From: a bacterium | GTDB lineage: Bacteria > Patescibacteriota > Doudnabacteria > UBA920 | Direction of reading: 5' to 3' | Length of the DNA: 35,928 bases | Assembly: GCA_021791515.1 (NCBI GenBank) | Contig: JAJYWK010000052.1 | Coordinates: forward strand, 1 to 35,928 | In this document: positions 2,531-21,047 of the stretch, piece after piece | Layout: the number at the start of each line of letters is the position of its first letter | How positions within the stretch are numbered: the stretch's first letter is position 1 | Translations under genes and position numbers: made by a program | The notes under the pieces: generated by a model | Seen by the model: the letters and a program-made list of their open reading frames with translations, nothing else | Database searches by the model: none | What the model was told of the DNA's origin: nothing

Positions 2531-2605
2531 GGTGCCCGTAGTTCAATGGTAGAACGCTACTCTGTGGCAGTAGTCACGAGGGTTCGATTCCCTTCGGGCA
2601 CCCCA
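2531..2605 (+). tRNA. tRNA-His (anticodon GTG)
   Basis: The acceptor stem GTGCCCG (2532-2538) pairs with CGGGCAC (2595-2601). G at 2531 is the extra G-1 of tRNA-His and pairs with C2602. The anticodon stem CTACT/AGTAG encloses the loop CTGTGGC, giving anticodon GTG. The T arm carries GGTTCGATTCC. CCA is encoded at 2603-2605. A -10-like TATAAA lies at 2521-2526. The 3' end is the integration target: the recombinase gene enters it antisense, and the last six bases (ACCCCA) are the proposed attachment core. Confidence 0.95.
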
Positions 2606-4276
2606 GACGGTATCTAATATAACCGAGTCCGGTTGATTGGATGCCATCACAGGAATCTCGGCATTACGTCGGGATTTTTGTGTTTTAGGGGCAATCATCT
2701 TGGGTTTTGATTTACCGGCTACTACCGGTGTAAATTCGACCGTCATGTCGGTTATGATCTTTGGTTCTCTAATCTCCTTGTATTTCTTGGTAAAGACCAT
2801 GTCCTCGGCTTGCATGAGTCCTCGAATGATCGGAGTTGGCAGTACGGTCACTACTTTTTTGTCAGTTACTTCAAATCTGTCCCAGTAAAGACCGAGGAAC
2901 AGTCGTTTCATTTCGTCCGGGGCTTTGGTATATGCCTCATAGGCATTGCGGACAAACAGCAAAACGTCTTGGAGCTCGTCGACTCGCAGGTTAAGTTTCT
3001 TGTCTTGGGCATAAATCTCATCTTGCAGGGCTTCGATCTGCTCTTTGATTTTTACCTTTACTCTGGTGAAGTCGTCATCAGTTATGAGTCCGGCAAAGAG
3101 CTTTTCCTCGGCCACGTCTCGTTTCTTTTCGGCCAGCATCTTTTGAGTATTCAATGCTCGCTTTTCTTTGTTTATTGTTTCTTTTCGTGAGCCGTAGATT
3201 TTTTCTATCTTTGCGACCAGCCGTTCGGTAAAGCTCGGCGTAAATTCTATAAATTTAAACAAGTTAGCGATCTGCTGTTCCAGATCCCAGACTTCCACAT
3301 ATTTATCATGGCATTTGATCTGATCGCCGGACCGGTTGCAGTGATAGTAGGATTTATTTTTCTTAGGATGATGTTCGGCAGTGTATCGCTGTCCGCAGTT
3401 GGCGCAGAAAGTAAGTCCTCGGAGTATGAAGTTAAACTTTTGCCGACGGCAGGCATATCGATTGTGTTCAGCCATGACGAGCTGGACACGTTCCCATGTT
3501 TCTTTATCAATAAGCGGTTTATGTTTTCCGGTATGTACCAATCCTCTCCAACGCATTTCGCCATAATAAAAAGGGTTTTTGAGGACTTCGATCATCTTGC
3601 TATGGGCAAGTCGTTTACCAGCGTGAGTTCTGAACCCTTTCTTGTATAAAGCGTCACGGACTTCGTAGACGGAATAATCACCGGTAACGTACATGTTGAA
3701 TGCTTCCTGAACGAGCGGCGCGCGTTCCTCGTCCACGATAATGATCCTCTTTTTCTCATCATTCGGATCACCGGCGTTTAAATATCCGACTGCAACGCCG
3801 GTTGGCCACCAGCCGTCCCAGAATTTCTGCTCGAGGCTCTTCAAAGTCTTTCTTGATGTGATCTGCGATTGGAGTTGGTTTACGCCGGCGATTACTAAGT
3901 CCATAAAGTTTCCCTCCGGGGAGTCGGTTATTCCTGGCTGGGAGACGGAGAATAATTCCACATCGTGCTTTTTGAGGATCGCTTTGATCTGCATGTGGTC
4001 GAGCGCGTTTCTCGCCAACCGATCGGTGTCTTGGATAAAGACAGCTCGAATGGCTTTATCGTCTTGGACTCGAAGAAGCATGTCTTGGAGTCCTGGCCGG
4101 TTCATGTTTGTGGCTGATCGTCCCGGGTCTTCAAAGACGCCCTCGTTTGCCAGTTTATATTTGTTGCTCTCCTCGATCGCTCGCTTGCAAAGCTTGAGCT
4201 GGGTTGCGAGCGAATGATGGCCGTCCTCGGCTTGCTCTTCGGTCGAGACTCGGCAGTAAATTAATGCATGTTCCAT
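2543..4276 (-). CDS. Large serine recombinase (integrase)
   Basis: 577 residues. The N-terminal resolvase domain (about 1-150) starts 'MEHALIYCRVSTEEQ', with R9 and nucleophile S11. A recombinase domain (about 165-275) follows ('GYLNAGDP', 'LKNPFYYGEMRWRG'). A zinc ribbon at 285-330 has CANC and a distal HC/C pair. A long coiled coil (about 365-450) completes the LSR architecture. It should integrate and excise the island. The last 19 codons, and the TGA stop, are antisense to tRNA-His, so the C-terminus is supplied by the host gene. In the excised circle the frame would instead continue into 20913-21047. The start lies next to 'aatatgaaaatact' with no Shine-Dalgarno sequence. Confidence 0.92.
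   Translation of the reverse strand: MEHALIYCRVSTEEQAEDGHHSLATQLKLCKRAIEESNKYKLANEGVFEDPGRSATNMNRPGLQDMLLRVQDDKAIRAVFIQDTDRLARNALDHMQIKAILKKHDVELFSVSQPGITDSPEGNFMDLVIAGVNQLQSQITSRKTLKSLEQKFWDGWWPTGVAVGYLNAGDPNDEKKRIIIVDEERAPLVQEAFNMYVTGDYSVYEVRDALYKKGFRTHAGKRLAHSKMIEVLKNPFYYGEMRWRGLVHTGKHKPLIDKETWERVQLVMAEHNRYACRRQKFNFILRGLTFCANCGQRYTAEHHPKKNKSYYHCNRSGDQIKCHDKYVEVWDLEQQIANLFKFIEFTPSFTERLVAKIEKIYGSRKETINKEKRALNTQKMLAEKKRDVAEEKLFAGLITDDDFTRVKVKIKEQIEALQDEIYAQDKKLNLRVDELQDVLLFVRNAYEAYTKAPDEMKRLFLGLYWDRFEVTDKKVVTVLPTPIIRGLMQAEDMVFTKKYKEIREPKIITDMTVEFTPVVAGKSKPKMIAPKTQKSRRNAEIPVMASNQPDSVILDTVWGARRESNPRDYCHRVAFYH
2600..2605. other. Putative attL core in the tRNA-His 3' end
   Basis: ACCCCA covers the last two acceptor bases, the discriminator and the CCA of tRNA-His. 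The tRNA is intact after integration because the core restores these bases. Serine recombinases need only a very short crossover core (2 bp), so a short match is not unusual. Confidence 0.45.
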
Positions 4277-4374: not shown

Positions 4375-4809
4375 CTAATCTTTTTGTCGTCTTTTCTTGA
4401 TACTTTCTAATATTTCGGTGATTTGACGGCTATCTCGCTGGTAGTCGTTGCCGGTGTACGGATCATCGTCACGGCCTTTCACAGGACCCAACACAAAATC
4501 CAGAATCGTTTTAGCGGCCCGGAATTTCATGGCATCGCTTCTCGCTCCCATGAGCGATACCAGCATCTTGGCCGCAGTCTCGGCGTGTCTCGCGAGCACA
4601 TTATCTGTCTCTCTGTCGCGGACACCATTTCTTTCTTTTTCGTATCGATCGTATTCCTCCTTGAGCAATCCATCGGCCCGGAACCACCTTTTCACACTGA
4701 CATGGGAGACTTTAAGCAGGTGAGCGATCTCTAAATACGTAAAATCACCATATTTTAAGCGGATCGCATTCTGATATTTTTCGTTTTTTATGTCTACAGT
4801 TTTTGCCAT
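4375..4809 (-). CDS. Helix-turn-helix protein, terminase-small-subunit-like layout
   Basis: 144 residues. Residues 18-45 form a homeodomain-like helix-turn-helix ('TYLEIAHLLKVSHVSVKRWF'). A basic, Glu-rich linker follows, then a helical segment 'AKMLVSLMGARSDAMKFRAAKTILDFVLG' (about 82-110). That order and the AAKTILD-type tail resemble small DNA-recognition subunits of phage terminases, but no large terminase is present. A DNA-binding regulator or replication accessory of the island is equally likely. It is co-directional with the rep-like gene, 21 bases downstream of it, and lies directly upstream of the recombinase gene. Confidence 0.6.
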   Translation of the reverse strand: MAKTVDIKNEKYQNAIRLKYGDFTYLEIAHLLKVSHVSVKRWFRADGLLKEEYDRYEKERNGVRDRETDNVLARHAETAAKMLVSLMGARSDAMKFRAAKTILDFVLGPVKGRDDDPYTGNDYQRDSRQITEILESIKKRRQKD

Positions 4810-4830: not shown

Positions 4831-5601
4831 TTAAAGGGTTAATAATGTATTGAAGTACGCGCCTTTTCTCTGAATCGACCCCTCTGGACTGTCACGCATT
4901 TGCTGGTATGTCTGCTCGAGTTTTGCCAATCCATGCTTCCGGAGAGCGGAAAGCATAAAACTCATATCAGTTTCCTCAAGGTATCGAGCAATCTCCAGAC
5001 ATCGTTCCTCCTCAAAGGTTTTTGGACTAAAACTTCTTACGGGGCGACGAGTCGATCGATTGTTTTTATTTTCTTTATCGGTATCGTTCTTAGGACTTCT
5101 GCCAGCTGAACTTTCAGAAGTGAAAGAAAACCGCTCTACTAAAGCATTTTTCTCGTTTTTCAACTTCTGCCGAACATCACCGACTTCTGCCGGCACTTCT
5201 GCCGGTGTTTGTATATCAGTATCATTCTCACTTCTGCCGGACTTCTGCAGGAAGCGAAAGTCTATGTCCTTAAAAGTGCCGTCAGATAAGGGGTAATTGG
5301 ATATATCCACATTGAACGAACTTCTGCGACCTTGCTGTACGGCAAACCATACCCACTTCTTCCGCTTAAGGTTCAGCATCAGGCGGTTGATATGATTTTT
5401 GGAATATTTTTCCTTGAAGTCTTTGGAGAGACCGGCATAACTAACGTGGGCCCGGCCGTTCCGGGGATTGGCATTGATCCATAGCCAGACGAGCACGGTG
5501 TATTCCTCAAACCGTAAATAGCCGTCCACGAGGGCGGTCTTGATGCTTCGAGGAAGCTTTACGTAGTCGTTATTGTCTATTTTGAATGGTAAATTTTCCA
5601 T
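4831..5601 (-). CDS. Replication-initiator-type winged-helix protein
   Basis: 256 residues. The N-terminal 110 residues look like a winged helix ('KLPRSIKTALV', 'FEEYTVLVWLWINA', 'VSYAGLSKDF', 'KNHINRLMLNLKRKKWV'), the fold of phage O-type and plasmid replication organisers. The middle (about 115-190) is low-complexity and polar. The C-terminal 60 residues ('RCLEIARYLEETD...KGAYFNTLL') resemble the tail of such proteins. The middle segment is encoded by DNA packed with direct repeats of ACTTCTGCCGG, like the origin inside lambda gene O. I infer an initiator acting on an origin within its own gene; the family assignment is by layout, not by strong sequence match. Confidence 0.55.
   Translation of the reverse strand: MENLPFKIDNNDYVKLPRSIKTALVDGYLRFEEYTVLVWLWINANPRNGRAHVSYAGLSKDFKEKYSKNHINRLMLNLKRKKWVWFAVQQGRRSSFNVDISNYPLSDGTFKDIDFRFLQKSGRSENDTDIQTPAEVPAEVGDVRQKLKNEKNALVERFSFTSESSAGRSPKNDTDKENKNNRSTRRPVRSFSPKTFEEERCLEIARYLEETDMSFMLSALRKHGLAKLEQTYQQMRDSPEGSIQRKGAYFNTLLTL
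5095..5330. repeat. Iteron-like direct repeats (ACTTCTGCCGG), candidate origin
   Basis: On the plus strand, copies begin at 5095 (ACTTCTGCCAG), 5163 (..CCGA), 5183, 5195 and 5230 (all perfect), 5241 (..CAGG) and 5320 (..CGAC). An inverted partial copy, CAGAAGTG, is at 5115-5122. Two pairs are 11-12 bp apart, about one helical turn. They lie within the rep-like gene and are read in all three frames, so selection appears to act on the DNA rather than the peptide. Confidence 0.6.
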
Positions 5602-5627: not shown

Positions 5628-5891
5628 TTAATCGATGGCATCGTTATACATAAGCGATTTAAGTTCCTTAATCGCCGTAACAAATGCCTTGGCGTTGACC
5701 TCGATCAAGCCGGCGAAATAGGCACTTACGAGCTGGGGACGATCGGGTTCGTCCGCGAAAATAAAACGAAACCGGCGCGAGTCGGCTTTGTTGATGCCCA
5801 GCAACTTATATCCCTTGGCCGTGAGAAAAGCGGCCGCGTAGAAGTCGCTGGTAGTAAAATTATTGTTGTCCGGCTGGTTTTTCATATTCAT
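5628..5891 (-). CDS. DUF5659-like small protein
   Basis: 87 residues: 'FTTSDFYAAAFLTAKGYKLLGINKADSRRFRFIFAD' followed by 'VSAYFAGLIEVNAKAFVTAIKELKSLMY'. The TSDFY-AAFL-KG opening and the VNA-F--AIK-LKS-MY ending match the DUF5659 pattern seen in CPR mobile regions. The biochemical role is unknown. It is one gene of a minus-strand series and overlaps the end of the 91-residue gene upstream by 32 bases, indicating translational coupling. Confidence 0.65.
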   Translation of the reverse strand: MNMKNQPDNNNFTTSDFYAAAFLTAKGYKLLGINKADSRRFRFIFADEPDRPQLVSAYFAGLIEVNAKAFVTAIKELKSLMYNDAID

Positions 5892-6135
5892 TTTGTTTAG
5901 CTTTATCTTTTTCCATTTGGCGGTAATCCAAAAGCCGGACGATCAGGTTGGCTAATCTGTCCATGAAAATCTCCTCCATTTGTTCAATGGTGAGGGGTGG
6001 TATTTTCTTTGTTGGTATTGGCTTCGGCATATATTTGCCGGCCCGCAAAATAAAAAGCAGACCGTTTTCTTTCAGTCTGCTCTTGGGCCTCCGAATCGGG
6101 TCGGACTCCACCTTATCCGGTTTTGTAATCGACAA
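5860..6135 (-). CDS. Hypothetical protein, basic N-terminus
   Basis: 91 residues with no family that I recognise. The first half is basic and Pro-rich ('PIRRPKSRLKENG', 'MPKPIPTKKIPPL'). The second half is a predicted amphipathic helix ('TIEQMEEIFMDRLANLIVRLLDYRQMEKDKAK'). It overlaps both neighbours on the same strand (23 bases with the gene before it, 32 with the DUF5659-like gene after it), supporting a coupled operon. The start is uncertain: an internal ATG at 6030 would leave only the helical half. Confidence 0.5.
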   Translation of the reverse strand: MSITKPDKVESDPIRRPKSRLKENGLLFILRAGKYMPKPIPTKKIPPLTIEQMEEIFMDRLANLIVRLLDYRQMEKDKAKQNEYEKPAGQQ

Positions 6136-6709
6136 ATATGCGTCTGACTTTCCATTTCATGAGCTTTTCTATGCCGAGATCCTCTTTGATTTTCTTATTT
6201 ACCGCACGCATAGCGTCATAGACACTGTCCTTGCTGTCTCTCGCCCAGTCCATTAAATCCAAGAAGTCTATCTCCTTGACTAGCGTGCCGAATGGGACCG
6301 CAAAAATCGTTTTACATAAAAAATATTGATTGGTATTTATCGGAATTTCGCATGATTTTCCTCCCATGCTAATTATTCCGGTTTTCTCATCAAACTTTAT
6401 CCTCATGTCCACCGGCTTTTCCAGTTTAGGCGCAGGCTTGTCTTTGAGTTTTAGAAAATAATCCTTAAGCATGGACCGGCTCGGTTTTGTGACTATAAAA
6501 TCACCATCATCAAATTTAAAGCCGATAATAATCTTTTTCTTTTTCAGTTCGGTTAGGACCGCTTTCTGATCGCCGATGTCCAGATCGGGTACCGGGGAAT
6601 TAAAATACACTTTGGCCGGAACTTTGTGTGTGACGTCCGTATAGGACTCCACACTTCCCAGCAGGGAATAAATAAAAACTAATTTTGCATTTTCATTTTT
6701 CATATTCAT
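6113..6709 (-). CDS. Winged-helix-type hypothetical protein, first gene of the left operon
   Basis: 198 residues. The last 75 residues ('PFGTLVKEIDFLDLMDWARDSKDSVYDAMRAVNKKIKEDLG...RIFVDYKTG') have the pattern of an OmpR-type winged helix: recognition-helix region, 'NKKIKEDLG', and a closing beta hairpin. The N-terminal part ('VFIYSLLGSVESY...DIGDQKAVLTELKKKKII') may be a second small winged domain. It is the promoter-proximal gene of the minus-strand replication module and could regulate it. The start 'ATGAATATGAAA' resembles that of the DUF5659-like gene. Exact function unknown. Confidence 0.6.
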   Translation of the reverse strand: MNMKNENAKLVFIYSLLGSVESYTDVTHKVPAKVYFNSPVPDLDIGDQKAVLTELKKKKIIIGFKFDDGDFIVTKPSRSMLKDYFLKLKDKPAPKLEKPVDMRIKFDEKTGIISMGGKSCEIPINTNQYFLCKTIFAVPFGTLVKEIDFLDLMDWARDSKDSVYDAMRAVNKKIKEDLGIEKLMKWKVRRIFVDYKTG

Positions 6710-7271: not shown

Positions 7272-7868
7272 ATGACCCAACGAATTGACATCATGAATAT
7301 ACTCCTCCGATCCAAGCAGTCGGTCTTTACGTTTAAGGAAGTGAATTTGCTTGCCGGAGGTGAAGTCAGTCCTGCGTTATTGCGCCGCAGGGTGAGCTAT
7401 TATGTTCAAAAAGATCAACTGCATCCTCTTCGTCGTGGCATTTATGCCAAAGATAAAAAGTACGACAAATTCGAATTGGCAAACCGAATCTACACCCCGT
7501 CATATATCAGTTTTGAAACCGTTCTCGGACGAGCCGGAGTCACTTTCCAATCGTACGGACAAATTTTTATTGCCTCATATCTCACTCGAGAATTAAAAAT
7601 TGAGGATCAGATATATTCATATAGAAAAATTAAAGATGATGTTCTTGCGAGGACTCAACCGCCAACGGGCATAGAACACAAAGGGACTTATTCTATCGCA
7701 ACTCCGGAACGAGCTTTTTTGGATGTTGTATATCTCTCGAAAGATTACCATTTTGATAATTTGTCTGCTTTGAACTGGGAGAAGGTCTTTGAACTTCTGC
7801 CGATTTTTGGCAATGCGGAAATGGAGAAACGGGTAAAAGCATATTACGAGCAGTTCAAAAATAGCTGA
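7272..7868 (+). CDS. AbiEi-like winged-helix antitoxin/regulator
   Basis: 198 residues. The N-terminal 65 residues are a winged helix of the AbiEi type ('VFTFKEVNLLAGGEVSPALLRRRVSYYVQKDQLHPLRRGIYAKD'). The rest ('RIYTPSYISFETVLGRAGVTFQSYG', 'YSIATPERAFLDVVYLS') matches the AbiEi C-terminal region, where 'ATPERAFLD' is the hallmark. AbiEi normally represses an AbiEii nucleotidyltransferase toxin, but no AbiEii gene follows; a SNF2 helicase does, 31 bases on. I infer that it has been recruited as the autoregulator of this restriction operon, or controls an unrecognised toxin. Confidence 0.75.
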   Translation: MTQRIDIMNILLRSKQSVFTFKEVNLLAGGEVSPALLRRRVSYYVQKDQLHPLRRGIYAKDKKYDKFELANRIYTPSYISFETVLGRAGVTFQSYGQIFIASYLTRELKIEDQIYSYRKIKDDVLARTQPPTGIEHKGTYSIATPERAFLDVVYLSKDYHFDNLSALNWEKVFELLPIFGNAEMEKRVKAYYEQFKNS

Positions 7869-7899
7869 AAGTAAACCATGAGTATGAAAATGAAAATCT

Positions 7900-10845
7900 A
7901 TGAAAATCACTGATCACCACGCAAAATATTTTGCCTACGAGTTAACCAAGCGATGTTCCTCGGACAGCTTGGAGAAATTGTCGTCCACACTTTCCAACGC
8001 GCAAGTTGATCTTAATCCCCATCAGATAGAGGCGGCATTGTTTGCGTTCCGATCGCCACTCTCCAAAGGAGCTATCCTCGCAGACGAAGTCGGTCTTGGA
8101 AAAACAATTGAAGCCGGACTTGTACTATCGCAAAAATGGGCTGAAAGAAAACGAAAAATATTACTTATACTGCCATCGAGCCTACGCAAGCAATGGAATG
8201 CCGAGTTGCAAGAAAAATTCTTTTTGCCATCGATTATTTTAGAAACAAAATCATTCAATCAATACGTTAAAGACGGCAATCTGAACCCGTTCGATCAGGA
8301 AGATGTTGTCGTCATCTGCTCGTATCATTTTGCCCGGTCAAAATCTTCTTATATAAAACAAACCAAGTGGGACATTGTTGTAATTGATGAAGCCCATCGT
8401 CTACGTAATGTATATAAAAACAGTAATAAGATTGCTCGAGAAATAAAGGATGCATTAGTTGATGTTCCGAAAATTTTGCTTACGGCTACACCGCTTCAAA
8501 ACTCCCTCCTTGAGCTGTACGGTTTAGTAAGTATTATCGATGACCATGTATTCGGTGATCTTAAGAGTTTCAAAGTTAACTATGCCCGACTCTCACGCGA
8601 GCAGGATGTTTATGAGGGCGAGCTTGGTATGGTTGAACCGCGACAGGAGATGTTTACCGATTTACGCAACCGGCTGAAGCCGGTTTGCATTCGTACGTTG
8701 CGAAGGCAGGTTCTTGAATATATCAAATACACCAAGCGGATTCCGCTTACTCAAAATTACATTCCTACTGAAGAAGAAGTTGAACTTTACAATGGTATGT
8801 CCGAATACCTGCAAAGAACGAAGCTGTTTGCTTTGCCTAATAGTCAACGTCAGCTTATTACCATGATTTTGCGAAAGCTTCTGGCGTCATCGTCTTTCGC
8901 TATCGCCAGCACACTGAATAGTCTGGTGTTCAAACTTTCGAAACTTATTGAGAAAGTGGAGAAGCAAAAAGCGGCCGAGGATAGTGGGATTGAGGGCCTT
9001 GATCAGAACTTTGAGACGCTTGATGAAGTATCGGACGAATGGATAGACAACGAAGAGGACGACGGCACAGAAGAGACGGAAACAAAAAAGATACAGTATA
9101 CCGACGAAGACGTTGCATTGATGAAATCGGAAAAGGTTGATCTTGAAAAATTTCGGGATGTTGCCAAGAAAATTTGGAAAAACTCCAAAGGAGATGCCCT
9201 GCTTACTGCGCTTAAAAAAGGTTTTGAAATGACCGAAGAGCTTCATGCAAATAAAAAGGCCATTATTTTCACCGAGTCCACCATCACCCAGAACTATCTT
9301 TTGCAACTACTTTCGGAAAATGGTTATACGGATAAGATAGTTTTATTTAATGGTTCGAACAACGACGAAAAGTCAAAACAGATTTATGCTACTTGGCTTA
9401 AGGACAACAAGGATACGGACAATGTAACCGGCTCGAAAACTGCAGACATGCGCGCGGCTCTGGTTGAATATTTCAGGGATGAGGCGGAAATTATGATTGC
9501 CACTGAAGCCGCGGCCGAGGGCGTGAATTTACAATTTTGCTCATTGCTTATTAATTATGACCTCCCATGGAATCCGCAAAGGATTGAACAGCGTATCGGC
9601 CGGTGCCACCGCTACGGCCAGAAATATGATGTTGTCGTGATCAATTTTGTTAATCTTAAAAACGCCGCCGATCAGCGCGTGTATCAGCTCTTGGATCAAA
9701 AATTCAATTTGTTCAAGGGTGTATTCGGCGCAAGCGATGAAGTTCTCGGAAGCATTGAATCTGGTGTGGATTTTGAAAAGCGTATCGCCGGTATTTATCA
9801 AACCTGCCGAAGCGAAGAAGAAATCAACACGGCCTTTGATGGCTTGCAAAAAGAGATGGACGAGAGCATCCAAAATAACCTGCGTGATACTCGCCAGAAA
9901 TTGTTAGAAAACTTCGATGCCGAAGTGCATGAAAAGCTCAAAGTTAATCTTAAAGAAAGTGAAGCGTATCTGGATACTTATACTCGCTGGCTATGGGATG
10001 CAACAAAATATTATCTCGGCGACCACGCTGATTTTGCTGAACACGAGTATTCTTTTACGCTTAAAAATAATCCATTCCCAAACGAACAGATTGATCCGGG
10101 ACCGTACAAAATCGGCAAGAATATTGATGATGCCCATATTTACCGGCCAGGGCATCCTTTGGCTCAAAAGATCCTTGGTGAGATCAAAGCCAAGCCGGCA
10201 GGTGAATCTGAGATAACTTTTGATTACTCCACTAATTCCACGATTATTTCTATTCTAGAACCGCTTGTTGGCAAAAGTGGTATTTTGAAAGTTTCCAATT
10301 ACACCGTCGAGGCTTTTGAAGCCGAGGACTCCGTGGTTGTATCGGCTATTGATGAATCGGGCAATCCGGTTGATGGAGAAATTACCAAGAAGTTGTTTTC
10401 AATTGCCGCGCGAGATGTAAAAGCCGCAGTAGTTTCTCCGGAAGAAAAAACTAAGCTGGACGAATTGGAAAGCCAAACTATTACTATGGTCTCTGGTCGG
10501 ATCGCCGAGCGTAACAGTGAGTTTTTCGATAATGAAGTAGACAAGCTGGACAAATGGGCGGAAGACATGAAGAAAGCCCTTGAGCTTGATCTTAAAAAAC
10601 TGGATGTTGATATTAAAATTTCAAAAACAAACGCCAAGAAAATCCTTAACCTCAATGAAAAATTGAAAGCCCAGCGTGGTATTAAGGATATGGAAAAGAA
10701 ACGCAATGAGATGCGCAAGAAACTGTACGAAGCGCAGGACGACGTGGAAGGCAGAAAAGAGAAGCTTATTGGGCAAGTCGAGTCTCAATTAAAACAAAAA
10801 TCAAAGCTTGAGCCGCTATTCACCATCCGGTGGAAAGTTGTATAA
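7900..10845 (+). CDS. SNF2/RapA-family helicase-like ATPase (defence-associated)
   Basis: 981 residues. The RecA-like N-lobe has 'ADEVGLGKT' (Walker A, about 61-69), 'VVIDEAHRLRN' (Walker B) and 'LLTATPLQN' (motif III). The C-lobe has 'EGVNLQFCSLLINYDLPWNPQRIEQRIGRCHRYGQ' (motifs V and VI). An acidic insertion (about 365-405) sits between the lobes. The C-terminal 250 residues are charged and helical with likely coiled coil (about 860-965). Such ATPases translocate on duplex DNA without strand separation and recur in DISARM (DrmD) and related systems. It lies upstream of type III mod/res and probably acts with them. Confidence 0.88.
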   Translation: MKITDHHAKYFAYELTKRCSSDSLEKLSSTLSNAQVDLNPHQIEAALFAFRSPLSKGAILADEVGLGKTIEAGLVLSQKWAERKRKILLILPSSLRKQWNAELQEKFFLPSIILETKSFNQYVKDGNLNPFDQEDVVVICSYHFARSKSSYIKQTKWDIVVIDEAHRLRNVYKNSNKIAREIKDALVDVPKILLTATPLQNSLLELYGLVSIIDDHVFGDLKSFKVNYARLSREQDVYEGELGMVEPRQEMFTDLRNRLKPVCIRTLRRQVLEYIKYTKRIPLTQNYIPTEEEVELYNGMSEYLQRTKLFALPNSQRQLITMILRKLLASSSFAIASTLNSLVFKLSKLIEKVEKQKAAEDSGIEGLDQNFETLDEVSDEWIDNEEDDGTEETETKKIQYTDEDVALMKSEKVDLEKFRDVAKKIWKNSKGDALLTALKKGFEMTEELHANKKAIIFTESTITQNYLLQLLSENGYTDKIVLFNGSNNDEKSKQIYATWLKDNKDTDNVTGSKTADMRAALVEYFRDEAEIMIATEAAAEGVNLQFCSLLINYDLPWNPQRIEQRIGRCHRYGQKYDVVVINFVNLKNAADQRVYQLLDQKFNLFKGVFGASDEVLGSIESGVDFEKRIAGIYQTCRSEEEINTAFDGLQKEMDESIQNNLRDTRQKLLENFDAEVHEKLKVNLKESEAYLDTYTRWLWDATKYYLGDHADFAEHEYSFTLKNNPFPNEQIDPGPYKIGKNIDDAHIYRPGHPLAQKILGEIKAKPAGESEITFDYSTNSTIISILEPLVGKSGILKVSNYTVEAFEAEDSVVVSAIDESGNPVDGEITKKLFSIAARDVKAAVVSPEEKTKLDELESQTITMVSGRIAERNSEFFDNEVDKLDKWAEDMKKALELDLKKLDVDIKISKTNAKKILNLNEKLKAQRGIKDMEKKRNEMRKKLYEAQDDVEGRKEKLIGQVESQLKQKSKLEPLFTIRWKVV

Positions 10846-10874
10846 AAAATTATCAAATAATTAACTAAAAATAT

Positions 10875-11711
10875 ATGACAGAAAACAATAAACTTATAGC
10901 AATTTTTGAAGACCAGCCTGTTCGTCGAACGTGGAATGCGAAAGAAGAAAAATGGTACTTCAGCGTGGTTGACATTATTGGTGTCTTGAGCCAAAGCTCG
11001 GACCCTAGAAACTACTGGAAAGTGCTCAAAAACCGGTTAAATAAGGAAGGAAGTGAAGTGGTTACAAAATGTAACCAGTTGAAAATGATCGCTCCTGACG
11101 GCAAAATGCGCGAAACCGATGCGGCCGACGTGGAGACCATTTTCCGGCTTGTCCAATCGGTACCCTCTCCCAAGGCTGAGCCATTCAAACTTTGGTTAGC
11201 CAAAGTTGGTTATGAGCGAATGCAGGAAACCGTTGATCCTGAATTGGCGGTAAATCGTGGGAGAAAGACTTGGCAGATGATGGGACGAAGTCAAAAGTGG
11301 ATTGAACAGAGAATGATGAGCGTTGAGACGAGAAATAAGCTCACTGATTATTGGTCTGAACATGGAATTGAGAAAGGCCAAGAATTCGCGAAGCTTACAA
11401 ATATCATCCATCAAGAATGGAGTGGCCTTTCCGTCAAGACGCATAAGAAAATAAAAAATCTAACCTATCATAATTTGCGCGATCACATGAGCGAGGCCGA
11501 AATTATTTTCACGGCTTTAGCAGAACTTTCTACTCGCCAGATTTCCGAAAAAGAAAAGGCCGAGGGTTATTCTCAAAATGAAATCGCCGCGAAAAAGGGT
11601 GGACAAATTTCTGGCAACGCGCGCAAAGCATTGGAAGATCAAACAGGTAAACGGGTCGTAAATTCTGAGAATTTTTTGCCGAATAAGAAAGATCCTAAGC
11701 AATTAAAATAA
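10875..11711 (+). CDS. BRO-N/DinD-like protein
   Basis: 278 residues. The N-terminal 110 residues ('IAIFEDQPVRRTWNAKEEKWYFSVVDIIGVLSQSSDPRNYWKVLKNRL', 'LPDGKMRETDAADVETIFRLVQSVPS'-type core) form a BRO-N-like antirepressor domain. The remainder ('WLAKVGYERMQETVDPELA', 'KLTDYWSEHGIEKGQEFAKLTNIIHQEWSGLSVKTHK') resembles DinD, a DNA-damage-inducible protein that acts on RecA in E. coli. It lies between the helicase and mod, with a 1-base gap to mod, so it belongs to the operon. A sensor of damage or of phage status is an inference. Confidence 0.72.
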   Translation: MTENNKLIAIFEDQPVRRTWNAKEEKWYFSVVDIIGVLSQSSDPRNYWKVLKNRLNKEGSEVVTKCNQLKMIAPDGKMRETDAADVETIFRLVQSVPSPKAEPFKLWLAKVGYERMQETVDPELAVNRGRKTWQMMGRSQKWIEQRMMSVETRNKLTDYWSEHGIEKGQEFAKLTNIIHQEWSGLSVKTHKKIKNLTYHNLRDHMSEAEIIFTALAELSTRQISEKEKAEGYSQNEIAAKKGGQISGNARKALEDQTGKRVVNSENFLPNKKDPKQLK

Positions 11712-11712
11712 T

Positions 11713-13296
11713 ATGACTAAAAAGCAAAAACTTGAATTGACGTGGATCGGCAAGGACGAAGAGCTCAAGCTCGAGCCGAGGATTTTAATCGAGGACCCGG
11801 ACAAGTCCTATGGAGACAAGTCGGCCGAGAATATGCTCATCCACGGCGATAACCTCCTCGCGCTCAAAGCCCTTGAGCAGGATTTCGCTGGCCGCATTAA
11901 ATGTATTTATATCGATCCGCCCTACAACACTGGTAGTGCTTTTGAACATTATGACGATAACCTTGAGCATTCTATTTGGCTCAATTTAATACGTCCACGG
12001 TTAGATATTCTGAAAACCCTTTTGGATAAAGATCAGGGTAGCATCTGGATTTCAATTGATGATACAGAGTCTCACTATTTAAAAGTGCTTTGTGATGAGG
12101 TTTTTGGTAGAAATAATTTTGTTGCAACAGTTATCTGGGAGAAGAAACACACTAGGAGTAATGATGCGAGATGGCTTTCCGACAATCATGATTTCGTTCT
12201 ATGCTACGCAAAAAATAAGTCACAATGGCAAAGAAATTTACTTCCCCGAACGGACGAGGATTCGAATGGTTATTCAAATATTGACAATGATCCACGAGGT
12301 GTTTGGGCATCAGGACCTTGTCATGCAAAAACACCAAACCCAAAAGATATTTATCCAATAACTACCCCGTCAGGCAGGACTCTTATGCCACCAGCTGGTA
12401 CAAGCTGGAGATTTTCAGAAAAAAGATTTGAAGAGTTAATCAAAGATAATCGCATTTATTTTGGCGACAAAGGGAATAACGTGCCTCGTTATAAAAGATT
12501 TCTCACGGAGGTTCAGCAAGGGTTAGTGCCAATTACAATATGGTTCCGTGAAGAAGTTGGTGATAACCAAGAAGCAAAACAAGAAATAAAAAAGTTATTT
12601 GCTGAAGATCCATTTTCTACTCCAAAACCAGAGAGACTCATTAAACGGATTCTGGATATTGCTTCGAAGCCGGGCGATTGGGTTTTAGATTCATTCCTTG
12701 GTTCCGGCACTACTTCAGCCGTGGCACACAAGACCGGACGGAAACATATCGGTATTGAATTCGGTGATCATGCTGACACGCACTGCTTGCCTCGTTTGAA
12801 AAAAGTTGTTGATGGTTCTGATGGCTTGGCTTTGTCGGAAGCACTTGGCTGGAAAGGCGGAGGTGGATTTAAGTTTTATAATCTTGCACCGAGCCTGCTT
12901 CGCAAGGATTCTTTCGGCAATTTTGTGATCGATGAAAAATACAACAGCAATATGTTGGCGGCCGCCATGTGTAAGCATGAGGGTTTCAAGTTCTATCCGG
13001 ATGAGGCACTGTATTGGAAGCACGGAAAGTCCACGGAAAATGATTTTATTTTTGTCACTACTGGTTTTGTTACGGCTGAACAGTTAGAAAAAGTTCACAG
13101 CGAAATGAAAGCCGGCGAGAGTTTACTCATTTGCGCCAAATCGTTTGCACCGGAATGCGAAAGCCGTTTTGCCGATATTACAATCAAAAAGATTCCGCAG
13201 ATGATTCTTGGTCGTTGCGAATTCGGTAAAGATAACTACGATCTGAATATTATCAAGGCCACTGAAGCGGAGGCGGAAGAATCTAACGAATCCTAA
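11713..13296 (+). CDS. mod: Type III restriction-modification methyltransferase subunit (Mod)
   Basis: 527 residues. 'CIYIDPPYNTG' (about 64-74) is the DPPY catalytic motif, and 'DSFLGSGTTS' (about 326-335) the SAM-binding FxGxG motif. The DPPY-before-FxGxG order marks a class beta N6-adenine methyltransferase of the type III group. The central segment between the motifs (about 125-310) should hold the target-recognition domain; its DNA is visibly more AT-rich than the flanks. The C-terminal 190 residues probably contact Res. Start ATG 11713 directly follows the preceding stop. Mod both marks host DNA and gives sequence specificity to Res. Confidence 0.9.
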   Translation: MTKKQKLELTWIGKDEELKLEPRILIEDPDKSYGDKSAENMLIHGDNLLALKALEQDFAGRIKCIYIDPPYNTGSAFEHYDDNLEHSIWLNLIRPRLDILKTLLDKDQGSIWISIDDTESHYLKVLCDEVFGRNNFVATVIWEKKHTRSNDARWLSDNHDFVLCYAKNKSQWQRNLLPRTDEDSNGYSNIDNDPRGVWASGPCHAKTPNPKDIYPITTPSGRTLMPPAGTSWRFSEKRFEELIKDNRIYFGDKGNNVPRYKRFLTEVQQGLVPITIWFREEVGDNQEAKQEIKKLFAEDPFSTPKPERLIKRILDIASKPGDWVLDSFLGSGTTSAVAHKTGRKHIGIEFGDHADTHCLPRLKKVVDGSDGLALSEALGWKGGGGFKFYNLAPSLLRKDSFGNFVIDEKYNSNMLAAAMCKHEGFKFYPDEALYWKHGKSTENDFIFVTTGFVTAEQLEKVHSEMKAGESLLICAKSFAPECESRFADITIKKIPQMILGRCEFGKDNYDLNIIKATEAEAEESNES

Positions 13297-13297
13297 T

Positions 13298-15949
13298 ATG
13301 AATACAAAAGCACAAGCAATCAAAAATCGTTTGAGTCTCCGCAAGCCGCAAGCGGACAGTTTGGAAATCTTGGAAAAACTGGCAGATACGCTGGAATTAA
13401 AGAAAGGGGTTGATCCAGTGTCTGAATTGGCAAAGGTTCGGGCATTGTATCCGACATGCTCGGATTTTGAACGAGACTTTCCCTCGGTTTGTTTTTCCTT
13501 GGCTACCGGCGTTGGAAAAACTCGCCTCATGGGTGCGTTCATTTCGTATCTTTACGTTGCCAAAGGCATTAAGAATTATTTTGTCCTGGCTCCCAACCTT
13601 ACGATTTACAATAAGCTCATTGACGATCTTTCCAATCCGCAAAATCCGAAGTATGTATTTAGGGGAATCGCCGAGTTTGCCGTCACGCCTCCCCGGGTCA
13701 TTACCGGAGACAATTACGCTGAAGCGCGGCAAAGCACTTTGTTTAAGGAGTCGGTCAATATAAACATTTTTAATATTTCCAAGATCAATTCCGAAGTCCG
13801 GGGCGGTAAAGAGCCGAAGATTAAAAGATTATCAGAATATCTTGGTGAGTCATATTTCAACTATCTTTCCGAATTGTCGGACCTCGTGCTTCTAATGGAC
13901 GAATCACACCATTATCGCGCTGATGCCGGACTCCGAGCGATCAATGAGTTGAAGCCAATTTTAGGCCTTGAGCTCACCGCTACCCCGATTGATACGCGCG
14001 GCAATAAATTCAAAAATGTTGTTTTTGATTATCCGCTGGCCCGGGCTTTGCAGGACGGTTTTGTAAAAGAACCGGCTATTGCCACTCGTCGCGACTTTAA
14101 TCCTGACCAATACCGCAATGATCCAAAAGAGCTGGATTTGATAAAGCTTGAAGATGGAATTCGTATTCATGAAGATACTAAAGTTGCTCTGGATATTTAT
14201 GCCCGTGATACCGGTAATCGTTTGGTCCGGCCGTTCGTGCTGGTTGTTGCCCGAGATACGGATCATGCCAAAGAAATTCGGACGATGATTGAATCGGACC
14301 GGTTTTTTGAGGGTAGATATACCGGCAAGGTAATGGAAATTCATTCCAATCAACGCGGCGAAGAAAAAGAGGAAAATGTTCAGAGGCTTATCGATTTGGA
14401 AAAACCGGAAAATCCGATAGAGATTGTCGTTCACGTTAACATGCTCAAGGAGGGCTGGGACGTTACTAATCTCTACACCATCATTCCTTTGCGCGCGGCC
14501 AATTCCCAGATTCTTACCGAGCAAACTATCGGCCGTGGCTTACGATTACCTTTCGGTGCCAGGACCGGTGTTGAAAAGGTAGACAAGCTCACTATTATCG
14601 CTCATGACCGCTTTCAATCCATTGTGGATGCGGCTAATGATCCCAATTCTATAATTCGGCAGGAGAATATCATTGAAATTGACCCGAATACTTTGCCGGA
14701 AGAGCAGGAAGTTATTACCGCATCATCGGTTACGGAAGAAGCGTTTACTGAAAAGCGCAAAGAAATTGCCAACATCACCAATGAGGCCGAACGACAAAAA
14801 GCCGGCTTTGCGTTGGAGGCCGAGCAGTTAATAACCGAGGCAGTAAGCACTCTTGGCGCGAATATAAAAAATATCAATGATTTAAAGAACGACGAAATTC
14901 GAAAACTAGCTTTCGAGAAAATGGTGGAAAGTATAGAAAACAATCCACAACAAAATCTTTTCAAGGCCAATCTCGTTGAGGCGGCCAAACAGGAATACGA
15001 GAACGTTATCTCCGAGTTTATTGATAAAACAATCGCCATTCCGCGCGTGCTTATTCAGCAGAAGCATGACGTTAAATCCGGCTTCCAAGATTTTGATCTG
15101 GACGTTGCTGGTCTGAACTATCAGCCAGTATCTGAAGAAATCATCCGCAGGACTCTGCGCACTAATGAAAGCGAAATTTTGCAAAGCGAAAGCTCGGGCG
15201 TTGTGCGCGATATTCCGGAGAATATTCTCGTCAACGAATTGATCAACTATCCGGAGGTTGATTATGACCGCGAGGCTGAACTCTTATATAAATTGTCACG
15301 GCAAGCCATTGCCAAGCTCGGAAAAGATCGGGACGCCGATGATCTGAAAAATATCGTTCTCTACCACAAAAGAGAAATCGGCCGCTATATTTATGCCCAG
15401 CTTCAACAGAATTTTTATTTGGAAACCTCCGGCTTTGAAGAACCGATCGTGTATCCGTTTGATCGCATTAAACCGCATAACTTTTCCAAATATACGGCTG
15501 ACAGTGTTCATCATTATACCGAGACCATAAACCCTACCCACGCGATCCCTTCAAAGGTTTTCGGCGGATTTAAGAAGGCCTGCCATAATCTTTACAAATT
15601 CGATTCTAAGGCCGAGAAAGACTTCGCCGCAATTTTGGAAAAAGATACCGATGTTTTGAAGTGGCTCCGGCCGGCCGAGTCCCAGTTTGAGCTTTATTGG
15701 AAGCATAATTCAAAACGCTATCATCCGGATTTTGTGGTCGAGACAGTAGATACGATCTTTATGGTTGAGATCAAGGCGGAAAAAGATATTGATGACACTG
15801 AAGTCCAAGAAAAAGCCGAGGCTGGAAAGAAATATTGCGAAGTGGTGTCGACTTTTAATGTAGCCAACGGCGGCAAAAAGTGGACCTACGTTCTAATTCC
15901 GCACACCGCCGTCGTGGCGAATATGAGCTTGAAGAGTTTGTGTAAGTAA
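13298..15949 (+). CDS. res: Type III restriction enzyme subunit (Res)
   Basis: 883 residues. An SF2 helicase core has 'LATGVGKTRLMGA' (Walker A, about 68-80), 'LLMDESHHYRADAG' (DEAH-box variant, about 197) and 'LELTATPIDTRGNKF'. The second lobe includes 'VHVNMLKEGWDVTNLYTIIPLRAANSQILTEQTIGRGLRLP'. The C-terminal PD-(D/E)XK nuclease has 'YHPDFVVETVDTIFMVEIKAE' (D near 811, E-x-K near 826). It hydrolyses ATP, communicates along DNA and cuts at a distance from the Mod site. It starts one base after the mod stop. All motifs are present, so the enzyme appears intact. Confidence 0.9.
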   Translation: MNTKAQAIKNRLSLRKPQADSLEILEKLADTLELKKGVDPVSELAKVRALYPTCSDFERDFPSVCFSLATGVGKTRLMGAFISYLYVAKGIKNYFVLAPNLTIYNKLIDDLSNPQNPKYVFRGIAEFAVTPPRVITGDNYAEARQSTLFKESVNINIFNISKINSEVRGGKEPKIKRLSEYLGESYFNYLSELSDLVLLMDESHHYRADAGLRAINELKPILGLELTATPIDTRGNKFKNVVFDYPLARALQDGFVKEPAIATRRDFNPDQYRNDPKELDLIKLEDGIRIHEDTKVALDIYARDTGNRLVRPFVLVVARDTDHAKEIRTMIESDRFFEGRYTGKVMEIHSNQRGEEKEENVQRLIDLEKPENPIEIVVHVNMLKEGWDVTNLYTIIPLRAANSQILTEQTIGRGLRLPFGARTGVEKVDKLTIIAHDRFQSIVDAANDPNSIIRQENIIEIDPNTLPEEQEVITASSVTEEAFTEKRKEIANITNEAERQKAGFALEAEQLITEAVSTLGANIKNINDLKNDEIRKLAFEKMVESIENNPQQNLFKANLVEAAKQEYENVISEFIDKTIAIPRVLIQQKHDVKSGFQDFDLDVAGLNYQPVSEEIIRRTLRTNESEILQSESSGVVRDIPENILVNELINYPEVDYDREAELLYKLSRQAIAKLGKDRDADDLKNIVLYHKREIGRYIYAQLQQNFYLETSGFEEPIVYPFDRIKPHNFSKYTADSVHHYTETINPTHAIPSKVFGGFKKACHNLYKFDSKAEKDFAAILEKDTDVLKWLRPAESQFELYWKHNSKRYHPDFVVETVDTIFMVEIKAEKDIDDTEVQEKAEAGKKYCEVVSTFNVANGGKKWTYVLIPHTAVVANMSLKSLCK

Positions 15950-16022
15950 TGTGCTAAAAATTGGCACTAGGCTAAAGAACTAGTGAGTGGGATGAGTTAC
16001 TAATGCCTCATATACCATTTTG

Positions 16023-16047
16023 AACCTCCGAAACCAGCGGAGGTTTT
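16023..16047 (+). terminator. Terminator of the restriction operon
   Basis: AACCTCCG (16023-16030) pairs with CGGAGGTT (16038-16045) around a 7-base loop and runs into TTTT at 16044-16047. It lies 74 bases after the res stop codon. Confidence 0.75.
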
Positions 16048-16075
16048 ACTGTGTATAACTTATAGTGATGATAAC

Positions 16076-16104
16076 TTGACTTTTATTTATATCCTTGCTA
16101 GGAT
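16076..16104 (+). promoter_or_regulatory. Promoter of the retron-like region
   Basis: TTGACT (16076-16081), 17 bases, then TAGGAT (16099-16104) preceded by TGC give an extended -10 promoter. The start would be near 16111, directly before a run of hairpins. Confidence 0.6.
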
Positions 16105-16107
16105 ATC

Positions 16108-16360
16108 CAATGAGGACGATTCGTCCTCTACGCTCATTGAAAGTAAATAGAGAGGATCACTCTAAAATAATGCAAGCTAGGCTCTCACGGGCATACGCCC
16201 ACCTTGAAAAGAGGCTTTGGCCTCTTACTTCTCGAAAGAGAAGGCACCTTGCCCCGGGCATGTATTTGTTCTGCTCTGTTAACAGGAAAGTGTTCAGCAA
16301 TAAATGTGTATGTACTTAAACATAAACATTTTATGCAATACACAACACTGATATCAGTTA
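16108..16360 (+). ncRNA. Candidate retron msr-msd RNA
   Basis: No convincing gene occupies this span. It folds into consecutive hairpins. GAGGACG/CGTCCTC lies within the outer arms CAATGAG (16108-16114) and CTCATTG (16133-16139). GGGC/GCCC is at 16189-16200. AAGAGGC-TTTG-GCCTCTT is at 16209-16226, and CTTCTC-GAAA-GAGAAG (GNRA loop) at 16228-16243. A longer hairpin has TGTGTAT (16305-16311) pairing ATACACA (16338-16344) with an inner CATAAA/TTTATG, followed by the 12-base palindrome ACTGATATCAGT (16347-16358). Three short stem-loops then a longer one is the layout of msr followed by msd. The a1/a2 ends and the branching G could not be placed. Confidence 0.5.
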
Positions 16361-16387
16361 TAAGGCAAATAAATTTGTAAGGGTAAC

Positions 16388-16546
16388 GGTATAAGTTCTT
16401 ATAGGTTTTCCCCTATACGTGCTTTAACGGTTCTGCCACTTTAAGTAGTCGCAGGCCAATTTACCGCCAATGAGCCGAGAGTCAATGTTGGCTTGCGACG
16501 AACGAAGTTGCGGGATCGTTAATTGCAGTTACTGTCGCATATTAAC
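16388..16546 (+). ncRNA. Second structured non-coding segment upstream of the retron genes
   Basis: GTCGCAGGCCAA (16448-16459) pairs with TTGGCTTGCGAC (16488-16499) over 12 pairs including one G-U. GTTAAT (16518-16523) pairs with ATTAAC (16541-16546). TATAAG/CTTATA and TATAGG/CCTATA hairpins lie near 16391-16417. It could be the 3' part of the retron RNA or a leader controlling the following genes. Confidence 0.4.
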
Positions 16547-16565
16547 CATTAACATTCCAAAACTT

Positions 16566-16862
16566 ATGAGTAAAAATAGTTCGGACAATCAAAAAGAAAG
16601 AGTGATCACCCTACTAACCAACTTCAACCGATTGACCCTGAAAGTCATGAAATTGAAGGTCAAGGATAGGCAGGCTCTCGGCCTGCTTGCTGAGGCCATG
16701 CAAATTAATAAGCAAATGTTGTCTTTAGCAAAAGATAACAAGATCAGCTTTGAGTTTGTAAGGCAAACGTTTTCTGTCATCGCCGCGGTGGTGAAAGAGA
16801 CGGTCAGCAAGTGGCTCTTCCGTTACAATTTAACGCCATTAATGGCACTGAAACTATGTTAA
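16566..16862 (+). CDS. Small helical protein of unknown function
   Basis: 98 residues from ATG 16566. I prefer this start because the in-frame ATG at 16470 would translate the 12-bp RNA stem. The protein looks entirely helical ('ERVITLLTNFNRLTLKVMKLKVKDRQALGLLAEAMQINKQMLSLAKD') with a hydrophobic C-terminal third ('FSVIAAVVKETVSKWLFRYNLTPLMAL'), perhaps membrane-associated. No family recognised. Its stop codon overlaps the start of the XRE gene (ATGTTAA), so it is translated together with the retron genes and may be part of that system. Confidence 0.55.
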   Translation: MSKNSSDNQKERVITLLTNFNRLTLKVMKLKVKDRQALGLLAEAMQINKQMLSLAKDNKISFEFVRQTFSVIAAVVKETVSKWLFRYNLTPLMALKLC

Positions 16863-17170
16863 CAGTCGGACAATTAATAAAAATAGGCAGGATCAATAAA
16901 AAGCTAGGCCAAGAAGATGTGGCCAGCAAATTGAAGGTGTCTAAAAATTACATCTCTCTTGTTGAAAATGGTAAAAAAGACCCAAGCATCAATTTCCTAA
17001 AAGGGGTGTCTAATTTTCTTGATATACCCTTGATTCTTTTAATGTGGGAGAAAATTGATATGCCGAAGGGAAAAACCGAAGGGGAAAGAAAAATTGCATC
17101 CCAGTTAGAAAAAATGCTTGAGGAGGCACAACGTTTATTTTCCGAGAAAACTTTTGGCAAGAAAAAATGA
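16856..17170 (+). CDS. XRE-family helix-turn-helix regulator
   Basis: 104 residues. Residues 5-60 form a typical Cro/CI HTH ('VGQLIKIGRINKKLGQEDVASKLKVSKNYISLVENGKKDPSINFLKGVSNFLDIPL'). The C-terminal third is a charged helix ('ERKIASQLEKMLEEAQRLFSEKT'). I chose ATG 16856, which overlaps the preceding stop; an upstream in-frame GTG at 16811 would add 15 residues outside the fold. Its end overlaps the reverse transcriptase start (ATGA). A small HTH protein next to a retron reverse transcriptase is the arrangement reported for HTH-associated (type VI) retrons, so it may be an effector or antitoxin as well as a regulator. Confidence 0.85.
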   Translation: MLTVGQLIKIGRINKKLGQEDVASKLKVSKNYISLVENGKKDPSINFLKGVSNFLDIPLILLMWEKIDMPKGKTEGERKIASQLEKMLEEAQRLFSEKTFGKKK

Positions 17171-18087
17171 AAAAACGAGCATCTTTAAAAATCAACACAA
17201 CAAAAGAGCTCGGGTTGCAACTAGGTCTGCCCGAGGATTTTTTAATAAGGACTAGCGAGTATATCGAGCAATGCTACAAAAAATTTCCTGGCACCGATAA
17301 GAAGGGCAAAAAGCGACCTTTTTACAAAGCCAATAGTGATCTTAAGAAAATACACAGGAAAATTAATAAACTCTTAGACGCTCTTGAGTACCCAGTTAAT
17401 ATTCAAGGCGGTATAGTCGATCGCTCAATACACACCAACGCTTCGATGCATTCGGGTAAAAAATATGTAGCTAATTTTGATATTAAGAATTTTTTCCCAA
17501 GCGTAAAATTTAAGACAGTCTATCGAGCTTTTCGAATGCAGAATTGCACGCCGGATGTCAGTAGGATGTTAACTCGACTTACTACGGCAGATACGGCCCT
17601 GCCTCAAGGGTTTGCCACGAGTCCAAAAGTATCAGGCCTTGTGCTACTGAATGTCAATCGCCGATTAAGTATACTGTTCAAAAAATACGGACTGGCGCAC
17701 ACTTTTTGGATTGACGATCTGACGATCTCTGGTTATCGCCCTATTCAGAAGTTTCAAAAACTACTCAATAAGATTTTCAAACAGGAAGGATTTGTTTTGC
17801 ACGACGATCCAAAAAAGACAAAGTTTACATCATCGGAAGAGAGGCAAACATGTACTGGATTGGTCATTAATCAGGAGCCAAATGCCGAAAAAAGCGTCAG
17901 GGAGAGAGTGAGAAAGGAATTATATCTTTGCAGTAAATTTGGGGTGGATAGCTATCTCAAAGACCACGATCTCCTGGTGGACAAAGAAAAGTATCTAATG
18001 TCCTTGCGAGGCAAGATAAGTTTCCTAACCGCCGCAAATAAAAAGAATATGATTTTCAAGGAACAATTTGCAAACCTTAAAGTTTAA
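17167..18087 (+). CDS. Retron-type reverse transcriptase
   Basis: 306 residues, a usual retron RT length. Visible motifs in order: 'NASMH' (91-95), the NAxxH signature of retron RTs; 'FDIKNFF' (104-110), motif A with the first catalytic Asp; 'LPQGFATSP' (145-153), motif B; 'FWIDDLTIS' (180-188), the catalytic DD box with W-I in place of Y-A; and 'CTGLVIN' (229-235), close to the VTGLVVN signature read by the cognate RNA. There is no maturase or endonuclease domain, which argues against a group II intron. It should make a branched RNA-DNA hybrid from the structured RNA upstream. Overlap with the XRE gene indicates coupled translation. Confidence 0.85.
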   Translation: MKKRASLKINTTKELGLQLGLPEDFLIRTSEYIEQCYKKFPGTDKKGKKRPFYKANSDLKKIHRKINKLLDALEYPVNIQGGIVDRSIHTNASMHSGKKYVANFDIKNFFPSVKFKTVYRAFRMQNCTPDVSRMLTRLTTADTALPQGFATSPKVSGLVLLNVNRRLSILFKKYGLAHTFWIDDLTISGYRPIQKFQKLLNKIFKQEGFVLHDDPKKTKFTSSEERQTCTGLVINQEPNAEKSVRERVRKELYLCSKFGVDSYLKDHDLLVDKEKYLMSLRGKISFLTAANKKNMIFKEQFANLKV

Positions 18088-18092
18088 TCACC

Positions 18093-20912: not shown

Positions 20913-21047
20913 TTACTTCTTGATGGACAGGAAGTCGTAGTTGTAAAATTTTGCAACTTTCTTGATATTGTTCATTTTTTCGCGTACTGTAACCATATAT
21001 TGCTTGTCCTCCAGCACGGTTATGAGACCGGACAAGCCGCGACCCCA
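20913..21047 (-). pseudogene. Detached 3' end of the serine recombinase gene (in the integrated state)
   Basis: On the minus strand this span reads 'WGRGLSGLITVLEDKQ' and on to 'NYDFLSIKK' and TAA, with coding-like content but no start codon: a TGA lies four codons upstream, in the terminator flank. If 2605 is joined to 21042 through the shared ACCCCA, the recombinase reads '...ILDTVW-G-RGLSGL...' without a break and ends here about 43 residues later. I therefore read it as the true C-terminal coding end, separated from its gene by integration. Confidence 0.55.
21042..21047. other. Putative attR core
   Basis: ACCCCA here matches the core at 2600-2605. Right of it comes TTTAAAACATC and a 16-bp terminator hairpin, the layout expected of the chromosomal sequence originally following tRNA-His. 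Left of it is the stranded recombinase tail. Confidence 0.45.

Follow-up and report, generated by a model that had tools for sequence, protein, structure and literature searches.

Does a gene on a Patescibacteria island hold, within its own reading frame, the origin from which the island replicates? The question is raised by the gene at 4831–5601 (minus strand), which encodes a protein of 256 aa and in which an 11-base word recurs. The window, meaning the whole stretch of DNA analysed (35,928 nucleotides), is one whole contig from a genome of 1.17 Mb that is 97.7 % complete. An initial annotation of the sequence had read the repeats as iterons, likened them to the lambda oriO arrangement and proposed an island that replicates when excised. 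We consider it probable that this gene encodes an integrative element's replication initiator and that the DNA specifying the wing and linker of that protein serves as the in-gene iteron origin.

A seven-copy array inside gene 4831–5601

Seven direct copies of the word were located at 5095–5330, comprising three perfect copies, three with one mismatch and one with eight bases in common, as the initial annotation had described. Their plus-strand starts (mismatches in brackets) are 5095 (1), 5163 (1), 5183 (0), 5195 (0), 5230 (0), 5241 (1) and 5320 (3), the last of which retains the eight bases ACTTCTGC unbroken. On the coding (minus) strand the common 8-mer is GCAGAAGT, found at gene positions 274, 353, 364, 399, 411, 431 and 499 (0-based). 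These positions define slots 1 (5320–5330), 2 (5241–5251), 3 (5230–5240), 4 (5195–5205), 5 (5183–5193), 6 (5163–5173) and 7 (5095–5105), all on the minus strand, with the perfect copies in slots 3, 4 and 5. In gene order the copies are read in frames 1, 2, 1, 0, 0, 2 and 1, confirming that all three frames are used. Matches to the 11-mer with up to two mismatches numbered 21 in the window against 6.9 expected, a total attained in 0 of 100 shuffles, and three of the five perfect occurrences in the 1.17-Mb genome lie inside the gene. Two weaker look-alikes at 5032 and 5355 are missing from most relatives.

The repeats might instead represent a peptide repeat or the codon bias of a low-complexity linker, carrying no DNA signal, as the linker is indeed of low complexity and the peptides GRS and AEV recur. 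The three frames nevertheless yield unrelated peptides, and the array never arose when the window gene was synonymously recoded (0/5000) or its codons were shuffled within the gene (0/150).

The final iteron in gene order is directly followed, on its 3' side, by an A+T-richer stretch (5056–5091, minus strand), a candidate unwinding region. Its A+T content, 69 % compared to 55 % gene-wide and likewise 69 % on average over 18 related genes, lends this role moderate support, given that in each gene some 9 % of windows of 36 nt reach the same A+T content. Scanning four elements revealed no DnaA boxes close to the array. GC skew was uninformative because it tracks gene direction; in three elements the minimum was ~2–2.5 kb distant from the array and in one ~0.1 kb. 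Helical phasing of the iterons was considered and rejected, because the spacings of 79, 11, 35, 12, 20 and 68 are not multiples of ~10.5.

Conservation of the word and of its slots

A single scan of genome_contigs identified 17 relatives with 68–91 % identity in many Patescibacteria groups; they bear Candidate Phyla Radiation names, from which the window's genome is taken to be that of an ultra-small bacterium of Patescibacteria type. Together with the window gene these gave 18 genes (proteins 68–100 % identical) and, at seven slots each, 126 slot cells; L024 and L025, duplicates of L011 and L017, were dropped before counts were made. The coding strand read AGAAGT in 118 of the 126 cells, and positions 6, 8 and 10 of the 11-mer were constant in all of them. 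Amino acid columns that were invariant yet degenerate used a single codon in 10/13 cases within slots versus 19/102 elsewhere (degeneracy-stratified permutation p ~5e-5, a value that ignores phylogeny and does not model relatedness). Six slots of the relative L015 read ACAGAAGT, the first base being A instead of G, and compared with the window protein this replaces Gly with Asp/Asn, Ala with Thr and Arg with His/Gln, depending on frame. As one change of word alters different residues in different frames, the aligned genes indicate that the selected unit is plainly the DNA word and not the peptide.

The slots were also followed into eleven further genes with 22–73 % identity to the window protein (G054, G150, G331 with two genes, G189, G437, G545, G596, G592, G164 and G407), whilst G226 (truncated, 149 aa) and G548 (match to the C-terminal domain only) were excluded from slot tests. 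Slots were placed by protein alignment alone, and within-gene 8-mer similarity was compared with that in peptide-preserving codon shuffles. The test was tabulated for 14 of the 29 genes, namely the window gene, L015, L022 and the eleven distant genes, whilst the spacing analysis took in all 29. Similarity between slots exceeded that of the shuffles in 13 of the 14, with counts of 0/2000 in ten genes and of 12, 13 and 20 of 2000 in G054, G331a and G331b, respectively. The counter-example was G164, which belongs to the outer fringe of the family and fails the test (334/2000). The words themselves differ from gene to gene: GCAGAAGT in the window is replaced by TCCGAGGT in G150, TCCGAAGT in G592, TCACAGGT in G407, and TCAGAAGT and TCAGAGGT in G189, G596 and G331. 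Some distant genes have unfilled slots.

Spacing was more uniform, with slot steps of 79-11-35-12-20-68 identical in 27/29 genes; the exceptions were G164 and G407, with a step of 24 for 12, and G164 also had 74 for 68. Disordered linkers normally tolerate insertions, yet the same 27 genes have none between slots although the linker is predicted to be disordered. When the spacing template was slid along each gene free of alignment, 26 of 29 genes peaked within 1 nt of the aligned register. The peak for G331a (3.48) was not above what controls reach (94 ORFs, mean best score 3.12, one at 4.3). De novo repeat searches in single distant genes (G054, G226, G189, G150, G331a, G331b and G164) were not significant, the lowest counts being 19 to 22 of 150 shuffles in G150 and G189, and the distant arrays are thus visible only in the slot-based test, with its positions preset by protein alignment.

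The initial annotation held that the DNA word rather than a peptide repeat is conserved, and alignment of the relatives bears this out, in that the word is maintained whilst the peptide diverges and distant words change in concert in the same slots. A peptide repeat or codon bias, to which we assign next to no probability, is ruled out by the frames, the recoding and this concerted change, seen both in L015, where residues change in each of the three frames, and in the more distant genes, where other words occupy identical slots. Given their conserved spacing and differing words, the repeats are best read, on the comparison of these genes, as sites held in a fixed scaffold, with a word that would drift in concert.

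Two further observations concern individual relatives. Contig 19 of G331 carries two rep–integrase modules ~17 kb apart (L047, 9219–10106; L048, 6912–7796), perhaps tandem elements, whose iteron words are similar without being identical. In G189 (L028/L032) the reading frame of rep is interrupted within the A+T-rich stretch directly behind the final iteron and then continues in a different frame, which would point to a pseudogene, an assembly error or a frameshift.

The encoded protein and comparison with known in-gene origins

An AlphaFold2 model based on 24 diverse sequences (mean pLDDT 72.3, N-terminal domain ~90) predicted a winged helix at residues ~18–103, a mostly disordered linker at ~121–183 and a helical C-terminal domain at 196–256, with residues 121–183 of low confidence save for one short helix. 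An earlier model based on 18 close sequences was poor. Mapped to this layout, slot 1 falls in codons of the wing, slots 2 and 3 at the end of the N-terminal domain and the rest in the linker. The fold matches were winged helices, a common fold, with N-terminal domains of RepA initiators among the best and tied with transcription factors. The RepA domains were 4pql_B (Z 8.1, rmsd 3.5, 87 residues), 4pt7_B (Z 7.7, rmsd 5.7, 93 residues) and 5kbj_H (Z 7.1, rmsd 5.4, 93 residues); a further match, to DnaD (2v79_A; Z 6.3, rmsd 4.3, 94 residues), came from the poor earlier model. No family model, those of Pfam and PHROGs included, named the window protein an initiator, and the PDB gave no sequence match to it. 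The best Pfam match among relatives was HTH_36 (PF13730), found weakly in two of ten (best 0.0022), whereas the window protein lacked it. The same domain forms the N-terminus of the RepA-like initiator in the chimeric pPR9-type Rep, as described in PMC5703833, and those two relatives would have it in common with that protein. Separately, L095 (G548) has the C-terminal domain in common with the family but a different N-terminal domain, and may reflect a modular initiator swap as in pPR9.

In-gene origins have already been characterised in lambda O and pSK41 Rep (PMC5043065, PMC5703833). The lambda O gene (38686–39585) contains iterons at 39034–39118, which our repeat analysis recovered as a control; O opens an adjacent A+T-rich stretch, and operon transcription crosses the origin (PMC5043065). 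The window gene is similarly arranged, with iterons in the gene of the presumed initiator itself followed by an A+T-rich stretch. It differs in that lambda has four 18–19-bp iterons of inverted symmetry bound by O dimers, whereas the window has seven non-palindromic direct words of 8–11 bp over 236 bp. Lambda also has a P-type loader, whilst the genes beside rep match HTH/terminase, DUF5659 or nothing, and no helicase loader was recognised among them. Comparison with lambda O gave an hhalign probability of 0.2, and there was no match to the Pfam phage replication protein O. The proposed lambda oriO arrangement hence stands as an analogy of layout, namely iterons within a gene, but not as a detectable relationship to O.

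As a parallel, pSK41 RepA is at least as close as lambda O. In the published description, an N-terminal winged helix of pSK41 Rep binds four Rep boxes central in rep, the origin encodes the central linker, the C-terminal domain contacts primase, and Rep with the linker deleted still works in trans (PMC5703833). The window gene has the central in-gene boxes, origin-encoded linker and helical C-terminal domain in common with it, binding being a prediction for the window protein; it has seven slots on a tRNA-integrated Patescibacteria island in place of four boxes on a plasmid. No RepA_N domain was detected in the window protein by Pfam or other sequence matching. The PLE satellites of Vibrio, according to PMC7145576, carry a large serine recombinase and a RepA_N initiator, and the window element likewise combines such a recombinase with a putative initiator on an integrated element, although the PLE origin is described as non-coding (PMC7145576) whereas the candidate origin here is inside the initiator gene. 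By analogy, the layout would work like that of lambda O, pSK41 Rep and PLE, whilst by sequence the protein falls within neither the lambda O nor the RepA_N family. A search of open-licence full text found no literature on this element family, though other accounts may exist.

A winged-helix protein could also use the repeats as operators that control transcription of its operon, perhaps including the integrase, with no origin involved. Operators seldom lie 270–500 bases inside the reading frame of their own regulator. The N-terminal domain does resemble many transcription factors and the array is inside a leftward operon running into the integrase, but a simple scan found no promoter-like site within the array, and the separate conserved helical domain together with the layout of the lambda O/pSK41 RepA type fits an initiator better. 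We regard an operator function without an origin as improbable.

The surrounding island, its cargo and its spread

The initial annotation had placed the rep-like gene on an island, and this was borne out: the gene sits on a delimited, tRNA-targeting serine-integrase island of ~18.4 kb with both ends mapped. The large serine recombinase (2543–4276, minus strand; Pfam Resolvase, Recombinase and Zn_ribbon_recom; phrog_95 1.4e-84) extends at its 3' end into the target tRNA-His (gtg) gene (2532–2605, plus strand), and the left end of the element is at the tRNA 3' ACCCCA. At the right end (..GACCCCA, 21035–21046), homology with the elements of G392, G393 and G394 continues up to 21034 and is followed by GACCC in all four, giving sizes of 18.4 (window), 18.8, 18.0 and 16.8 kb, respectively. 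Nine tRNA-His loci show the tRNA followed by (A/G)ACGGTATCTAATATAACC as the left end. An overlap between the integrase ORF and a tRNA gene was seen at 17 distinct loci, of which the window is one; nine of the targets are tRNA-His, and the others are Ala, Lys, Glu, Asn or Ser tRNAs. In G016, which has no rep match, tRNA-His adjoins a TrmH-type gene that is the right-flank gene of the window element. No long direct-repeat att sites were found; the ends have only about ACCC(C) in common. Immediately 5' of the tRNA-His that serves as target, and beyond the mapped boundary of the element, is an HNH-type gene (2053–2520), whose family also occurs close to the end with tRNA-His in L012, L019 and L045.

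We examined 27 loci (window, L007–L023 and L041–L049, of which L042/L043 duplicate L011/L017 and several are cut by contig ends). Alongside rep, a member of the integrase family was present in 23 of them, a DUF5659 gene in 21 and an HTH/terminase-like gene in 17. In the window, the HTH protein resembling a terminase small subunit (4375–4809; phrog_2538 2.7e-10) lies between rep and the integrase, the DUF5659 gene (5628–5891; PF18903 2.1e-13) is directly upstream of rep, and a conserved gene with no family match (6113–6709) lies close to where the leftward operon begins, all three on the minus strand. Of 379 genomes sampled from the whole phylum, 9 carried the rep family, and among the 22 genomes of the window's family the window's own was the only one to do so, a sparse and scattered distribution as expected of a mobile element. 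No rep relatives were identified in viral_contigs, IMG/VR, phages or plasmids, and no integrase relatives in viral_contigs.

Defence genes make up the rightward cargo (7272–18842, plus strand). These comprise an AbiEi-like regulator (AbiEi match 1.3e-60), a DrmD-like SNF2 helicase (7.8e-211), a Bro-N candidate defence protein (PDC-S13 9.9e-123), type III Mod (4e-191) and Res (3e-190), a reverse transcriptase of retron type (RT_VI 2.4e-63) preceded by an HTH gene, and a nuclease resembling Cas4 (2.1e-8). The region 16470–18087, with a small ORF, an HTH_3 gene (16811–17170) and the reverse transcriptase (17167–18087; RT_VI/Ec107-like by PADLOC), is a possible type VI-like retron; Rfam reported no RNA there, its only match being the tRNA at 2532.

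The cargo and neighbouring genes bear on lifestyle. The element could be a phage satellite, amplified by its initiator once a phage is induced and packaged under the direction of the terminase-small-subunit-like protein, a reading compatible with an in-gene origin. Consistent with this, the gene between rep and integrase matches phrog_2538, a terminase small subunit family, in 15/15 members scanned, no capsid, tail or conjugation gene was found among the island proteins scanned, the elements measure 16.8–18.8 kb, and PLE satellites have the same pairing of recombinase and initiator (PMC7145576). Conversely, Pfam matches of this neighbour are mainly HTH and its terminase label comes mainly from one PHROG family, phrog_2538 is not matched by the corresponding genes of G150 and G226, two distant elements, no helper phage is known, and rep and integrase relatives are lacking from the phage and IMG/VR collections. 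We consider a satellite lifestyle possible but rather unlikely.

A different doubt concerns present activity, as the array could be the remnant origin of an element now immobile in this host. The window element is a single integrated copy on a contig, and neither a circular form nor joined ends appeared among the sequences compared; one joined-end (attP) pattern match in viral_contigs, L096, had G+C-rich flanks and was taken as chance. Yet the gene, integrase and array are intact, and the window array is the best-kept of the 18 genes, with GCAGAAGT in 7/7 slots, equalled only by L023. A decayed origin is therefore improbable in our judgement.

Returning to an active initiator with an in-gene origin, we infer protein binding, origin melting, excision and autonomous replication as follows. 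The serine integrase would excise the element and insert it at tRNA genes. On the excised circle, the winged helix of the initiator would bind the seven fixed-position iterons, the A+T-rich stretch after them would be opened by the initiator, and its C-terminal domain would recruit host replication proteins. More tentatively, and as a possibility that we hold to be less than even, the evidence may be joined into a Patescibacteria class of tRNA-integrated, self-replicating, satellite-like elements, whose entire origin would be a base-exact array of seven slots within the initiator gene. The word would drift in all slots along with the initiator and generate new replication specificities (incompatibility groups), leaving the slots unmoved, and defence genes would be shuttled between lineages, possibly in phage particles via the terminase-like protein.

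In-gene origins have been characterised in only a few phages and plasmids. The present family offers a natural series in which DNA word, spacing and binding domain can be traced down to ~22 % protein identity, and the co-evolution of initiator and site under coding constraint thereby becomes measurable. To our knowledge there are few genetic tools for Patescibacteria, for which the element is a candidate replicon, and it also provides a named vehicle for their defence genes.
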